A DNA stretch of 64,000 nucleotides from Paenisporosarcina antarctica. GTDB lineage: Bacteria; Bacillota; Bacilli; Bacillales_A; Planococcaceae. The notes beneath the pieces were generated by a model. It ran no database searches. It saw only the letters and a program-made list of their open reading frames with translations, and had not been told where the DNA came from. The position numbers were made by a program, and so were the translations under genes. The DNA is taken from NCBI RefSeq assembly GCF_004367585.1, contig NZ_CP038015.1, positions 324,001-388,000 of the forward strand. Reading direction: 5' to 3'. Below are positions 3,484 through 54,386 of this stretch, in pieces. Within the stretch, counting starts at the first letter, position 1, and every line of letters begins with the position of its first letter.

Positions 3484-3951
3484 TTAAGCGAATTTTTTCA
3501 TTAAGTTAGCCATTTCAATTGCGGCAGTTGCAGATTCCCAGCCTTTATTGCCAGCTTTTGTTCCTGCACGTTCAATTGCTTGTTCAATCGTATCAGTTGT
3601 CAATACGCCAAAGATAACGGGAACATCATGTTGATACCCTGCATTTGCAACACCTTTAGCAGCTTCGTTACACACAAAGTCAAAGTGAGGAGTAGATCCA
3701 CGAATAACTGTACCAAGTGTAATTACGGCATCATATTTTTTAGACGCGGCCATTTGTTTAGCTACAAGTGGAATTTCAAACGCTCCAGGTACCCAAGCAA
3801 TAGTCACATTGGCATCATCAACACCATGTCTTTTAAGAGCATCTTCAGCTCCACCTAATAGTTTACTCGTAATAAATTCATTAAAACGTCCAACGACAAT
3901 TCCTACTCTTAAATCCGCGCCAATTAAATATCCTTCTAAATGTGTAGTCAT
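3484..3951 (-). CDS. ribH: 6,7-dimethyl-8-ribityllumazine synthase
   Basis: A 155-residue protein, the normal length for RibH. It condenses 5-amino-6-ribitylaminouracil with 3,4-dihydroxy-2-butanone 4-phosphate to the lumazine precursor of riboflavin. Visible signatures are [16 protein letters not shown], the substrate-binding [28 protein letters not shown] and the C-terminal [13 protein letters not shown]. In Bacillus this enzyme forms a 60-mer shell around riboflavin synthase. It is the last gene of the rib operon, 16 bases after ribBA, and ends at an intrinsic terminator. All expected residues are present. Confidence 0.97.
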
Positions 3952-3967: not shown

Positions 3968-5161
3968 TTAGAAACTTAGGTAATGACCTAACTTCGATTG
4001 TTTTGTTTTCAAATAGGTTTCGTTTTCTTCATGAGCAGGTATTTCAATAGCCACACGTTCAGTTACTTCCAAACCGTATCCATCTATCCCGGCAACTTTT
4101 CGAGGGTTATTTGTAAGCAACTTCATTTTTCGTACACCTAGATCTCGTAAAATTTGTGCGCCAATTCCATACTCGCGCAAGTCATCTGCAAAACCTAGCT
4201 TGTGATTAGCCTCAACAGTATCTAACCCTTGATCTTGAAGTGCATATGCTTTTAGTTTATTTATTAAACCAATGCCACGGCCTTCTTGACGCATATAGAG
4301 TAAAATACCTGAACCTGCAGCTTCAATTTGTTTAAGTGAAGCCTCTAGCTGAGCTCCGCAATCACATTTGCGAGATGAAAAAACATCACCAGTTAAACAT
4401 TCTGAATGAACACGTGTTAGAACAGGCGTGTCGCTTGAAATATCTCCTTTAACAAGGGCAATATGTTCTTTCCCGGTAAAGGTTTCGGTGTACCCAACAA
4501 TTTTGAAATCACCAAATTCAGTAGGTAACAAGGTTTCGACTTCTCGGGTGATTAGTTTTTCATGTTCCCTTTTGTAAGCAATCAACGCAGCAATTGTTAA
4601 GATACCGATATTTAGTCGCTCCGCAATGATTACGAGGTCATCAAGTCTTGCCATAGTACCGTCTTCATTCATAATTTCACAAATGACACCTGCTGGAGGA
4701 GATCCTGCTAGCAAGGCTAGATCGACAGCTGCTTCCGTATGTCCTGCACGCTTTAATACTCCGCCTTTTTTGGCAATCAAAGGAAAGACATGACCCGGAC
4801 GTTTAAAATCAGTTGCTTTAGATTCACTGTTAATCATTTGAAGAATGGTATGAGACCGTTCAAATGCACTGATGCCAGTTGTTGTATCTTTATGATCAAC
4901 ACTGATTGTGAATGCTGTACCGTATGGGTCTGTGTTTCTGTCTGTCATTAAACCAAATTGTAGTTGTTGTGCAATTTCTTCTGCCACTGGGACACAAATT
5001 AAGCCTTTTCCTTCAGTAGCCATTAAATTGACGATTTCAGGAGTAGCAAATTCTGCCAAAGCAATAAAATCTCCCTCATTTTCACGATCTTCGTCATCCA
5101 CCACTATGATGGCTTGTCCTTTTGCTAATACTTCAACTGCTTCTTCTACTGTATAAAACAT
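3968..5161 (-). CDS. ribBA: Bifunctional 3,4-dihydroxy-2-butanone 4-phosphate synthase / GTP cyclohydrolase II
   Basis: A 397-residue fusion. Residues 1-200 are the RibB domain, which makes the four-carbon unit from ribulose 5-phosphate; the acidic active-site motif [10 protein letters not shown] is intact. Residues 205-397 are the RibA domain, which opens GTP; the zinc-binding [15 protein letters not shown] and the RQEGRGIGL loop are intact. The ATG at 5161 is chosen because AAGGAG lies about seven bases ahead; a longer frame to 5266 would run back into ribE and has no site. It sits 13 bases after ribE and 16 before ribH. Both reaction entry points are therefore coded here, in contrast to the broken ribD upstream. 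Confidence 0.97.
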
Positions 5162-5174
5162 AAGAATTCTCCTT

Positions 5175-5804
5175 TTAGAAACCGTGTTCTTGTAGCCAAT
5201 CTTTTGACATATTCGATTTAGATGTCTGTATGAGTTCTGTATATTTCGCAAGCATGTCACACTCAATATTTACTTTGTCTCCAATGCCTTTGTCTCCAAG
5301 TATGGAATCACTTTTTGTTGTTGGAATCAAGGAAACGGAAATGGATGTTCGATCCACATGGAAAACGGTAAGAGATGTTCCATCAATTGCAACAGACCCT
5401 TTAATCATCATGTATTTCATAAGGCTAGGGTCTAATTCAATCTTTTTGGTAATGGCATTGGTCTCTTTTTTAATGGAACGAATAACACCAATTCCATCGA
5501 CGTGCCCATTGACAAAGTGTCCACCAAAACGCCCATTGGCCGCCATTGCTCGTTCCAAATTAACATGAGACTTAGATGTTAAATCGGCCAATGTGGTTGA
5601 TTTAAACGTTTCTGGAATAACATCGACGACAAACGTTTCTTTCGTGAAAGAAGAGACAGTTAAACAAACACCGTTAACCGAGATACTATCGCCTCTTTTG
5701 ACGTCATCTAAAATCATTTTTGCTCGTATAGTCATTTCAAGTGCATGTGGTTTTCTTTGAATAGAAGTAACTGAACCTATTTCTTCAATGATACCCGTGA
5801 ACAA
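5175..5804 (-). CDS. ribE: Riboflavin synthase, alpha subunit
   Basis: A 209-residue protein with the two tandem lumazine-binding domains of riboflavin synthase: the first opens [10 protein letters not shown] and carries SVNGVCLTV, and the second carries GHVDGIG and AIDGTSLTV. It dismutates two lumazines to riboflavin and the ribitylaminouracil that RibH reuses. The ribosome site is a strong AGGAGGGAGG just ahead of 5804. It is the first intact gene after the FMN riboswitch; about 600 bases between the two hold a degraded ribD. Confidence 0.96.
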
Positions 5805-5944
5805 GTAAACAACCTCCCTCCTGAAAAGAGCATCAATTTGAAAATCGAAGTCTTATAGTTTAGGTAATTTGTGGTTCGCTCTATTTAATGAATAAATAAA
5901 GACTTGTTATATATTTTGTTAAGCGTATAAATATTTGTGTACTG

Positions 5945-6412
5945 TAAATATGAATCTGAAAAATAGTTGTTGGGTTTTTTTCCACCATGGGGCAAACGGG
6001 TGGTGAGGAAAGGATGATTCAGAAGTACCTTGTCAATGCTTACTAAAAGGACATCTAAACATGACTCAGTATACTAACATCTTCTCGTGATTCTATGAGA
6101 AGGTAGCCAGTTGCTATCGTCAGTTTTCAATGTAGAATAATGTGACAAAAGGCATTTGAAGTGTAATAGTTTTGAAAAATGCTCGAGTAAGTTACTTCGC
6201 TCCTTTTCGAATTTCCAATGAGACCGTTAACTTTGATACCTTTAAGAAGCATACCTATAAGATAGAGGCATAGATTCGTAATAGTAAAGATACCAGAGTA
6301 TATAAGTTTCCTTAGTACCAAAAGTTTAATCAGTGAGAGATGTTCTAGCAATTCAATCTAATGCTAGTAAATAAGAGATCCCTCAAAGCGAATAGAAGCA
6401 TTGCGCAAGCAT
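5945..6412 (-). pseudogene. ribD: Decayed ribD (deaminase/reductase) relic
   Basis: No open frame of useful size exists here, but pieces of RibD can be read in order on the minus strand in different frames. From 5' to 3': LIYSGIFTITN (like the family's LI.SGIKRVV, following a ruined PCSH..KTPPC zinc segment) and IGMLLKGIKVN near 6340-6230; FFKTITLQMPFVTL at 6179-6138; DSNWLPS at 6118-6098; IESREDVSILSH at 6096-6061; and DVLLVSIDKVLLNHPFLTTR followed by LPHGGKKP at 6055-5945, matching the reductase-domain pattern D..LVG.GTV..D.P.LTTRLPHGG. The zinc ligands are gone, there are several frameshifts and stops, and most of the C-terminal reductase domain is absent. Total length is about 470 bases against roughly 1.1 kb for an intact gene. 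The order of pieces and the position between riboswitch and ribE are those of ribD in the usual operon. Confidence 0.85.
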
Positions 6413-6433
6413 AACAAATGTACTTCTCTATAC

Positions 6434-6572
6434 TCTTCTCCCATCCAGACTATACTGTCGGTGTTGGATTTGCACCAACTCCACCGCTACTTTTTCAAGT
6501 ACCGGGTCACGGACTTACAAATTTTCATTTGCTCACCGCCGGTAAGGAATTTCACCTTGCCCCGAAGAATAT
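6434..6572 (-). promoter_or_regulatory. FMN riboswitch (RFN element) of the rib operon
   Basis: Read on the minus strand, the segment starts ATTCTTCGGGGCAAGGTGAA, continues ATTCCTTACCGGCGGT and GTAAGTCCGTGACCC, and ends GGTGCAAATCCAACACC, ACAGTATAGTCTGGATGGGA and GAAGA. These are the conserved blocks of the RFN element in order, and the first and last bases pair to close the P1 helix. It should bind FMN and reduce expression of the downstream rib genes. The aptamer looks complete, although the first gene after it (ribD) is destroyed. Confidence 0.96.
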
Positions 6573-6732
6573 AAAGTTACTATTTGTCTTTCTTATAATA
6601 TCACATTGTACAACAAATGATAAATTCAATTACTTATTGGATTACTTTGGTAGATAATCTTTACAAATTACTTGAATTTTGTGATAACATAAACTTATTC
6701 ACGAATGTTTACGAAGGGGGAAGGAATGTATC

Positions 6733-24000: not shown

Positions 24001-24522
24001 GTATATAAATTTGAAGTGCCATGAATCCAGTATTCCGGGTATTTTAAGGAGTAGGTTCTAGTATGATACCGCTGATTTGAGCTCCAGGCGGAAGCTTTCC
24101 AAGGGGCGGGCGGAGAGCCTCCTCAGGCCAACACGATGTTGGTCACAAAGGCGTTGTCACATGATGTGACGTTCTTAGACTTTGTTCCACTTATCGCTCC
24201 ACTGCGGGGTCTCACCTGTCCCGCTAATCCCGTAGGAAAGATATTGGACGAACTGTTATTCGTCCAATATCTTTGCGACGAGTAACCGCAGGAGCACATG
24301 CTTTTTTCGCCTCCTTCCGCTTCAATCAAGTAAATGTTTTCGAATTGATCATAAAAGAAAATACAACTTAAAAAGAAGGGATTGCGGAACGGTGGTTTGC
24401 ATGATGAACACTGAAATTCTGGTATTTTGAGCAAGTATTTCTCTTTTTAGAAATAGTGTAGAAGAAGTATTCCTGCTAGCTGTGTCGCTCAAGATTTCAA
24501 ATAATTCTCACTAAAAATAGAA
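24001..24522 (+). repeat. Long intergenic duplication, copy A (see 46534-47039)
   Basis: This noncoding block, including repeat copy 2, is largely repeated at 46534-47039. Shared stretches lie on both sides of the GC-rich core: ATGAATCCAGTATTCCGGGT and AAGGAGTAGGTTCTAGTAT before it, and TGTTTTCGAATTGATCA, GCATGATGAACACTGAAATT and ATAGTGTAGAAGAAGTATT after it. The two differ by internal insertions: about 70 bases at 24126-24195 here, and about 50 bases near 46855-46905 in the other. Confidence 0.85.
24071..24330 (+). repeat. GC-rich intergenic repeat, copy 2, with internal hairpin module
   Basis: It has the same organisation as copy 1, from GCTGATTTGAGC to CGCTTCAATCAAG. The hairpin stem is at 24237-24252 with 24259-24274, followed by the shared 26-base tail (24275-24300). 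An extra segment at 24126-24195 holds two small hairpins (CCAACACGATGTTGG and GTCACATGATGTGAC) absent from the other copies. Open frames here are spurious. Confidence 0.85.
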
Positions 24523-30917: not shown

Positions 30918-31101
30918 TTCTACCCCCCTATGTACGATTACTCTATTTACATCATACAGAAGCATAAAAATGTTCACAACTTCCTTACATATAGTAAACG
31001 AAAGAAGGCAGTAAATAGTTCACTTTTGAAGAAAAAGGAACCTATTTATAAGTGAATCATTTATTTAAAAATAGAATTCCTATTATTTTGAAAAATTGGT
31101 G

Positions 31102-53282: not shown

Positions 53283-53804
53283 TTAAGCCGGGTTAGCTTC
53301 TAGTTCGATAGTGATCTTAATGTCTTTACCTACTAATACGCCGCCAGTTTCAAGTGCTTGGTTCCAAGTTAAACCAAATTCTTCACGGTTAATTTTAGTT
53401 TCAGCGCTGAAACCAACTACTTCTTGGCCCCATGGATTTGTACCTTTTCCTTCATATTCAGCATTGAATACAACTGGATTAGTAACGGCTTTTATTGTTA
53501 AATCTCCTGCAATCTCATATTCATCATCTTTTTTTGTAATATTTTTTGCAATGAATTTAATTTCTGGGTATGTTTCAACATCAAAGAAATCAGCTGAACG
53601 AAGGTGATTGTCACGGTCTACGCTTCCGGTAGTAATACTTGCCACTTGAATGTTAAATGCAATTTCGGCATTAGATAAATCTGTTTCTGTAGCTGCTACC
53701 TCCGCAGTGAAATCGCTGAAACTTCCACGTACTTTAGATACCATCATATGTTTTACTGAAAATCCAATACTTGAGTGGGATGCATCTACGTTCCATTTTT
53801 TCAT
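53283..53804 (-). CDS. YceI family lipid-binding protein
   Basis: A 173-residue protein with the YceI beta-barrel pattern: WNVDASHSSIGFSVKHMMVS opens it, then VRGSFSDFTAEV and DNHLRSADFFDVETYPEIKF. YceI proteins bind long isoprenoid or lipid tails; no signal peptide is seen here, so it is probably cytoplasmic. ATG 53804 has GGAGGA about six bases ahead. It is divergent from an HxlR regulator, with a large palindrome between them that may control it. Confidence 0.9.
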   Translation of the reverse strand: MKKWNVDASHSSIGFSVKHMMVSKVRGSFSDFTAEVAATETDLSNAEIAFNIQVASITTGSVDRDNHLRSADFFDVETYPEIKFIAKNITKKDDEYEIAGDLTIKAVTNPVVFNAEYEGKGTNPWGQEVVGFSAETKINREEFGLTWNQALETGGVLVGKDIKITIELEANPA

Positions 53805-53961
53805 AATTAATTCCTCCAAATTGTTTTTTATTTCTATGCTTTACTATATGCAATAAATATCTCGATGTCAATATGTTTTAATTAAAATATCTTGAATTAA
53901 AGGTATTATATTTGTAGGTTGAATATACTCATATTTCAAAATAAAAATATTTCATAAATTG

Positions 53962-54008
53962 TACTATTTTAAAGTAAGTTATAATACGTAACTTACTTTA
54001 AAATAGTA
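53962..54008. promoter_or_regulatory. Perfect palindrome with 20-bp arms between yceI-like and hxlR-like genes
   Basis: TACTATTTTAAAGTAAGTTA (53962-53981) is repeated inverted at 53989-54008 around TAATACG. The arms are perfect and contain TTACTTTAAAATAGT, similar in base content to the operators of HxlR-type repressors. There is no T run, so a terminator is unlikely. It probably binds the neighbouring HxlR protein; this is inference from position. Confidence 0.6.
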
Positions 54009-54077: not shown

Positions 54078-54386
54078 ATGAAAGAAACAACAGTTTGTCC
54101 ACGGTTATCAAAAGCTATGGAACTTATCGGGAAAAGATGGACCGGTCTAATCCTATATCAGTTATTAGAAGGACCCCAGCGATTCAACGAAATTGTATCT
54201 TCCTTGCCAGTGAGTGGACGCCTCCTATCTGAACGATTAAAAGAACTAGAAAAAGAAGGATTAGTAGAACGTAATGTTTTTGCAGAAGTTCCTGTGAAGG
54301 TTGAATATTCATTAACTGAAAAAGGTAAAGGGCTAAAAGATGCAATTGCTAACATTGAACAATGGTCAAAAGTATGGTTATCTTGA
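54078..54386 (+). CDS. HxlR-family (DUF24) transcriptional regulator
   Basis: A 102-residue winged-helix protein with the HxlR start TTVCPRLSKAMELIGKRWT and LYQLLEGPQRFNEIVSSLPV, ending EYSLTEKGKG. The Cys near residue 6 occupies the place of the redox-sensing Cys of YodB, CatR and HypR, so a role in oxidative or electrophile stress is plausible. ATG 54078 follows AGAGGTG; GTG 54069 overlaps the site. It is divergent from the YceI gene. Confidence 0.87.
   Translation: MKETTVCPRLSKAMELIGKRWTGLILYQLLEGPQRFNEIVSSLPVSGRLLSERLKELEKEGLVERNVFAEVPVKVEYSLTEKGKGLKDAIANIEQWSKVWLS

Follow-up and report, generated by a model that had tools for sequence, protein, structure and literature searches.

We analyzed a 64,000-nucleotide (nt) stretch of the Paenisporosarcina antarctica genome (3.97 Mb), here called the window, which spans positions 324001 to 388000 of contig C1 and carries a riboflavin biosynthesis (rib) operon. 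The Bacillus ribDEBAH operon, controlled by one flavin mononucleotide (FMN) riboswitch (RFN element), is the textbook case of riboflavin synthesis in the Bacillales. The minus strand of the window from 6573 to 3484 contains an FMN aptamer, a 624-nt interval, ribE, ribBA, and ribH. The aptamer and these three genes have the same order and strand as in Bacillus, but ribD is a remnant here, and a distant cassette is predicted to do its work. The features of the operon, in window coordinates, are as follows.

6429-6573, minus strand: FMN riboswitch aptamer (RFN element), RF00050, 117.8 bits versus a gathering score of 66.2, full model 1-138
6320-6428, minus strand: former expression-platform region
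6241-6428, minus strand: possible further 5' ribD remnant, weakly supported in a shuffle test of the first 200 nt
5942-6240, minus strand: ribD pseudogene core (best path, RibD residues about 126-231, four frameshifts, one stop)
5175-5804, minus strand: ribE, riboflavin synthase, 209 amino acids, intact (PF00677; TIGR00187, 235.1 bits)
3968-5161, minus strand: ribBA, 3,4-dihydroxy-2-butanone 4-phosphate synthase/GTP cyclohydrolase II, intact (PF00926, PF00925; NF006803, 621 bits)
3484-3951, minus strand: ribH, lumazine synthase, intact (PF00885; TIGR00114, 199.7 bits)

The interval at 5805-6428 (minus strand) was compared with a profile of ten intact RibD proteins by three-frame local alignment tolerating frameshifts and stops. 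It scored 119.1, versus 24.6 for the reverse strand and 25.4 ± 3.5 (maximum, 43.2) for 300 dinucleotide shuffles. A sequence-only reading of this DNA had proposed that ribD decayed between an intact aptamer and intact downstream genes, and this was borne out: the frameshift-aware search that it called for found RibD similarity at 5942-6240, and Pfam and NCBIfam matches show ribE, ribBA, and ribH to be intact, with the GTP cyclohydrolase II catalytic residues of RibBA aligned. The core is a pseudogene rather than an open frame with zinc-binding deaminase and reductase domains. Its zinc motifs and C-terminal part are absent or unrecognizable, in agreement with the ruined zinc segment and missing reductase part described from the letters. 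The peptide pieces MPFVTL, DSNWLPS, ESREDVSILSH, and HPFLTTRLPHGG, read there as RibD-like, lie inside the best path. The 5'-most pieces may be real, but support for them is weak because the first 200 nt of the interval rose only weakly above shuffles (44 versus 32.9 ± 4.8), with shuffles scoring as high in 8 of 300 cases against the RibD of L112, 44 of 300 against that of L078, and 161 of 300 against the cassette RibD.

Against L112, the nearest intact operon RibD (from another genus of the same family), the interval scored 213 versus 53.6 ± 8.2 for 300 shuffles, along a path that crosses almost the entire interval at the cost of 19 frameshifts. Among 41 single RibD references, the top four were same-family operon RibDs (213, 197, 193, and 189). 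The fifth (185) came from a second ribA2-linked clade described below, and the main cassette clade was not among the first six. As the best references are operon RibDs, the remnant represents the old operon gene and not a copy of the new one.

Decay of operon ribD in related genomes

All eight Paenisporosarcina genomes with RibE have the aptamer followed by a gap of 306 to 624 nt before ribE. The seven sister genomes, with gaps of 306 to 615 nt where ribD should occupy about 1.1 kb, lack a full ribD at this site too, which answers the locus comparison that the sequence-only reading had suggested. The remnant signal was higher than every one of 300 shuffles in six genomes (G000, G002, G004, G005, G007, and G008), was weak in G003 (6 of 300 shuffles as high), and was null in the shuffle test of the G006 interval. 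The ninth genome of the genus, G001 (2.5 Mb), contains one FMN riboswitch and neither RibE nor a true RibD and is likely a riboflavin auxotroph.

Forty-three intervals (17 + 26) were scored in all, including L279, which has an intact ribD; L265, where no RFN element was called, and 18 RibE places without a locus were left out. Decay is graded in the order L263, L262, L266, the window, L114, and G009. G027 retains both genes, Sporosarcina JAI121 (L263) has an operon ribD with one frameshift, and Sporosarcina HYO08 (L262) has about half of it, followed by S. luteola (L266), the window, Bhargavaea (L114), and finally G009, a sister of G027. The G009 remnant matched the operon RibD of G027 best (206), with a cassette RibD second (112). 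Traces in Planococcus-type genomes exceeded all 200 shuffles at L255 and L259, while 1, 4, and 26 of 200 shuffles scored as high at L258, L257, and L256, respectively, and G015 was null. The ribD signal was gone from the Neobacillus and Psychrobacillus-type intervals tested.

Four genomes (G002, G005, G006, and G008) have a hairpin downstream of the aptamer that would sequester the Shine-Dalgarno sequence at the former ribD start. This hairpin was not seen in the window, and no terminator was called on the minus strand of its leader. The Bhargavaea-group genomes (G011 and G029) and G009 have a terminator-like hairpin after the aptamer. We do not claim a conserved platform near ribE because the last 75 nt fold differently from genome to genome. 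Tandem FMN riboswitches, two to four within a few hundred bases, were observed before ribE in L110 (G012), L115 (G030), L120 (G020), and L269 (G101) and, by coordinates, before ribD in G013 and G025; they are also present in G031 and G048.

An intact ribD in a ribA2-ribD-HAD cassette

The genome encodes one full RibD of 370 amino acids (C1:774841-775950), about 445 kb from the rib operon, within the following cassette.

Contig C1, about 774.05-776.5 kb: ribA2-ribD-HAD cassette

The cassette ribD overlaps the 3' end of ribA2 (GTP cyclohydrolase II, 263 amino acids) and is followed by a gene for a HAD protein of 196 amino acids. The cassette RibD (P0001) is of equivalog grade by TIGR00326 (413.9 bits versus a cutoff of 156.35) and holds both domains (PF00383, 72.2 bits; PF01872, 201.7 to 203.4 bits); the HAE and PC...C zinc motifs are readable in it. 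RibA2 matched NF001591 (194.8 versus 148) and fell below the TIGR00505 equivalog_domain cutoff (180.2 versus 205.85). It aligns with the catalytic residues C54, C65, C67, Y105, and R128 of Escherichia coli RibA. The HAD protein (7951-8541 of L098, the locus of this cassette) has NT5C similarity (PF06941) and may be a candidate for the pyrimidine phosphatase step. The ratio of nonsynonymous to synonymous substitutions (dN/dS) versus genus relatives, where computable, was 0.05 to 0.09 for RibE, 0.04 to 0.08 for RibD, and 0.04 to 0.09 across RibE, RibD, RibA2, and the HAD protein, with synonymous sites saturated in several pairs. Selection on the genes downstream of the remnant, as had been proposed, is thus upheld for ribE, the one of the three that was measured.

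Rfam searches at E values up to 1 over L098 found no FMN riboswitch. A hidden riboswitch at the cassette was rejected, as this locus matched nothing beyond a Bacillaceae-1 RNA and, weakly and well under the cutoff, a single microRNA. Bacillaceae-1 RNAs (RF01690) occur both in L098 (4776-4837, minus strand, 42.3 bits) and in the window (24128-24194, minus strand, 67.6 bits). At the search threshold, the genome has two RFN elements, one at the rib operon and one at the gene for a RibU-like ECF component. Both a ribD elsewhere and a ribU behind its own FMN riboswitch, which the sequence-only reading had named as things to look for, therefore exist, while its other option, a blocked pathway with dependence on riboflavin uptake, is not supported given a TIGR00326-grade RibD.

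A scan of species genomes yielded 100 cassette loci, of which the best 80 were kept; 50 of these 80 were sent to RibD and RibE searches, and 49 were searched. Cassettes occur in Paenisporosarcina, Psychrobacillus, Sporosarcina, Bhargavaea, Planococcus, Neobacillus, Peribacillus, Ornithinibacillus, and other genera. In the 80 retained loci (the best of 100), ribD is preceded by ribA2 in 78 cases and followed by the HAD gene in 68. A tree of 62 RibD proteins places 38 cassette proteins on one side of a branch (support, 100/99), apart from 18 operon RibDs. Bacillaceae and Caryophanaceae rows interleave within this clade, partly on weak branches, which suggests transfer within it. Six ribA2-linked RibDs (about 46 to 51% identity) form a second clade (support, 100/97). 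These proteins (L060, L062, L064, L065, L067, and L140) are linked to ribA2 and HAD, and the rib operon lacks ribD in five of their six genomes; in G017, RibE is at a contig end.

Repeated DISPLACEMENT is apparent from the 49 cassette genomes, four of which are genus members already counted: 44 contain a single RibD at E values up to 1e−40, and RibE is present in 43 of these 44. By coordinates, an operon RibD persists next to RibE in four of the 49 (G087, G103, G112, and G126), and G109 has one with a frameshift. We then related cassette and operon states on a RibE tree of 62 loci, comprising 26 of 48 places (18 lack a locus and 4 are repeated genus members) and 36 of 46, with labels assigned by us from coordinates and five second-clade genomes counted as cassette. 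The set contained 45 cassette/lost, 3 cassette/intact, 14 no-cassette/intact, and no no-cassette/lost loci. Operon ribD was thus lost in 45 of the 48 genomes with a ribA2-linked ribD and kept in all 14 without a cassette, and the loss state requires at least 10 changes on the best tree. G087 and G126, which have a cassette and an intact operon ribD, were left out of this tree, so that cassette/intact genomes number at least five overall. By coordinates, nine further genomes without a cassette keep ribD beside ribE (G013, G014, G025, G050, G052, G053, G056, G062, and G068), and G061, labeled cassette/lost, encodes another RibD that is not next to ribE. Strain TG20 (G007, L122) kept ribD-HAD and has no ribA2; a search for a ribA2 remnant before its ribD found no trace (score of 48 versus 51 ± 9 for shuffles). 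A cassette-type ribD-HAD pair without ribA2 was also observed in L133 (G055), upstream of an RFN-ribE-ribBA-ribH operon.

Proposed control of the cassette and competing explanations

The window also encodes a candidate repressor of both the cassette and a catE-like gene.

54078-54386, plus strand: HxlR/DUF24-family regulator, CatR/YodB type (PF01638, 103.4 bits, 6.1e−30)
53962-54008, strand not assigned: operator-like palindrome with two TACT[7]AGTA motifs, before the HxlR gene

The protein combines the HxlR domain with an N-terminal redox-type cysteine, Cys7, which is its single cysteine, and its nearest solved structure is YodB (5hs7, 1.4e−26). The genome has seven HxlR matches. On the other side of the palindrome, a YceI-like gene (53283-53819, minus strand) is divergent from the HxlR gene, and the two may be under common control. 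Bacillus subtilis CatR is modified at Cys7, a conserved redox-sensing residue (PMC6943732), YodB prefers a TACT[7]AGTA operator (PMC8063818), and the known targets of CatR/YodB include catDE (PMC6212828). Neither ribA, ribD, nor riboflavin is mentioned in the main text of PMC6943732.

Upstream of Paenisporosarcina ribA2, a TTGACA-17 nt-TATAAT promoter is directly followed by ACTTACATAAAGTAAC. Across the nine genus genomes, this 16-mer (up to one mismatch) was found 18 times, compared to 4 for a reversed-pattern control. Seven of the 18 sites lie ahead of ribA2 and match exactly. A further seven, three of them with a single mismatch, lie ahead of a catE-like gene in these same genomes. Of the remaining four, one is found before an HxlR gene, and three are unassigned. 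The catE-like protein (G000, about 3.044 Mb) contains PF00903, matched no solved structure, and has 37% identity over 282 positions to B. subtilis CatE. TACT[7]AGTA is present in six of seven genus cassette promoters, G003 having AACT. More widely, of 94 distinct cassette upstreams, 35 contain TTAC[5]GTAA, versus 0.68% of shuffles; four of the six second-clade cassettes are among the 35. Genes for HxlR relatives (50 to 55% identity) are divergent from catE-like genes at 15 of 30 loci from other genera and G007, and 13 of these 15 have the repeat in the intervening DNA; the divergent arrangement was found at none of the seven genus loci. An HxlR-type gene is near 6 of 101 cassette loci: in three Sporosarcina cassettes it is on the same strand, 233 to 521 nt upstream of ribA2, and in three others it is further away on the other strand. 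The window contains another CTTAC...AGTAA site, at 30984, immediately ahead of a sigma-factor-like gene (named by eye) on the minus strand, and we claim no link to it.

Sequence comparison establishes the remnant, the two-domain cassette RibD, the failure to find an FMN riboswitch at the cassette here, genus-wide decay, and the near-exclusive relation between cassette and operon ribD. Taken as a whole, these data are very probably explained by an operon ribD pseudogene made redundant by the separate ribA2-ribD-HAD cassette. The lineage would have gained the cassette, after which operon ribD became redundant and decayed. Cassette RibD would perform the deaminase/reductase step, its predicted activity, and feed RibBA, RibH, and RibE; RibA2 would add a second GTP entry, and the HAD protein may act as a pyrimidine phosphatase. 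The sequence-only reading missed this conserved cassette, the repeated displacement across the Bacillales, and the likely regulator at 54078-54386.

Some observations run counter to displacement by the cassette. A seemingly intact operon ribD persists in at least five cassette genomes (G027, G087, G103, G112, and G126), TG20 lacks ribA2, and G001 lacks both RibE and a true RibD. The tree-corrected test on its own falls short of significance (P = 0.0625), with five supported independent pairs, of which a mean of 4.7 were concordant and none discordant.

We also favor, with less assurance, CatR/YodB-type HxlR control of the Paenisporosarcina cassette, released on Cys7 modification. The repressor at 54078-54386 would sit on the operator beside the −10 box and hold the cassette off until quinones or catechols modify Cys7 and the operator is released. 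Supply of early intermediates would then follow redox stress, and ribE-ribBA-ribH would stay behind the FMN aptamer. On this view, the RibD step would have escaped FMN feedback and become part of a redox-stress regulon.

The most serious competitor accepts the replacement and takes the shared repeat for a promoter feature or another factor's site rather than a CatR-type operator. We regard this as unlikely, although several points tell against CatR-type control. The repeat TTAC[5]GTAA is missing from 59 of 94 cassette upstreams, and redox control is therefore not a general property of the cassette. It is also missing from the HxlR promoter of the window, which has TACT[7]AGTA, from upstream of the TG20 catE-like gene, and, for the patterns searched, from before ribA2 in the three Sporosarcina cassettes with an upstream HxlR gene. 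The catE-like protein scored 41.9 against the TIGR03211 cutoff of 320.2, far below the catechol 2,3-dioxygenase equivalog level, and is catE-like in name only. The several HxlR paralogues offer other candidate factors. Across 28 genomes of other genera, the repeat was found at both promoters in 15, at the cassette only in 3, at catE only in 6, and at neither in 4 (200 nt before catE and 300 nt before the cassette were compared), a sample that is not random because genomes were picked partly for repeat-bearing cassettes; three genomes with the repeat at the cassette have none within 200 nt of catE. In the Planococcus genomes with the repeat at both promoters, the catE copy has the spacer ATAAA and the cassette copy a different one, TTTTA. 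Against a mere promoter feature stand the 16-mer at both promoters in all seven genus genomes with ribA2 and the catE-like gene, a shared GAAAA spacer at both promoters in five of six Psychrobacillus-type genomes, and the placement of HxlR genes beside catE-like genes and upstream of three Sporosarcina cassettes.

The cassette could instead serve a specialized pathway, for example, one leading to a 5-amino-6-ribitylaminouracil product or another secondary metabolite, with the loss of operon ribD unrelated. A stand-alone GTP cyclohydrolase II and a HAD phosphatase do travel with ribD, and some genomes keep both ribDs. However, the 44 single-RibD genomes have no RibD other than that of the cassette, and as 43 of them have RibE, it must serve riboflavin there, which makes this alternative improbable. 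Still less probable is a broken pathway, in which the organism would be an auxotroph living on RibU uptake, with its other rib genes on the way out. The dead operon ribD, the RibU-like gene behind its own FMN riboswitch, and G001 would fit, but all eight genus genomes with RibE have a TIGR00326-grade ribD, and RibE and RibD are under purifying selection. Sequencing or assembly error making an intact operon ribD look broken, for which no supporting point was found, is scarcely credible, since seven sister genomes also have gaps at this position, which excludes an error confined to this genome.

A literature search of titles and abstract starts, with most subscription journals outside its scope, found no account of this arrangement. 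Lactobacillus plantarum WCFS1 lost ribD (ribG) from an otherwise recognizable rib operon and does not grow without riboflavin (PMC1570366); here, in contrast, ribE-ribBA-ribH are intact and a second ribD is present. SoxRS controls ribA in E. coli (Koh et al. 1996, as cited in PMC6092379). There, as predicted here, GTP cyclohydrolase II comes under a redox-stress regulon, but the present case involves a ribA2-ribD-HAD cassette and a predicted CatR/YodB-type repressor instead of SoxRS. With the B. subtilis CatR/YodB-catDE regulon (PMC6212828, PMC6943732, PMC8063818), the system would share an HxlR/DUF24 repressor with an N-terminal cysteine, a catechol dioxygenase or, here, a putative dioxygenase-like target, and a TACT[7]AGTA-like operator, which those sources describe for YodB; the regulon predicted here differs in that it would take in riboflavin genes.

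A shared cassette has, on this evidence, repeatedly displaced ribD from a one-riboswitch operon and left remnants at many stages of decay. The cassette offers a candidate for the pyrimidine phosphatase and, in the orphaned aptamer, a natural experiment on a riboswitch after the death of its first gene. In some lineages, the displaced step lies on an operator-like repeat common to a catechol-dioxygenase-like gene. The odds appear even that in Paenisporosarcina, and then probably in Psychrobacillus and Planococcus, control of riboflavin entry has passed from FMN feedback to the sensing of quinones or catechols. A CatR-type repressor would then switch on ribA2-ribD-HAD, redox demand would drive the making of 5-amino-6-ribitylaminouracil and, from it, flavin, and the aptamer would guard the late genes only or have lost its output. 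If this control is real, flavin supply would be tied to electrophile stress in Gram-positive bacteria, in parallel to SoxRS and ribA in E. coli.
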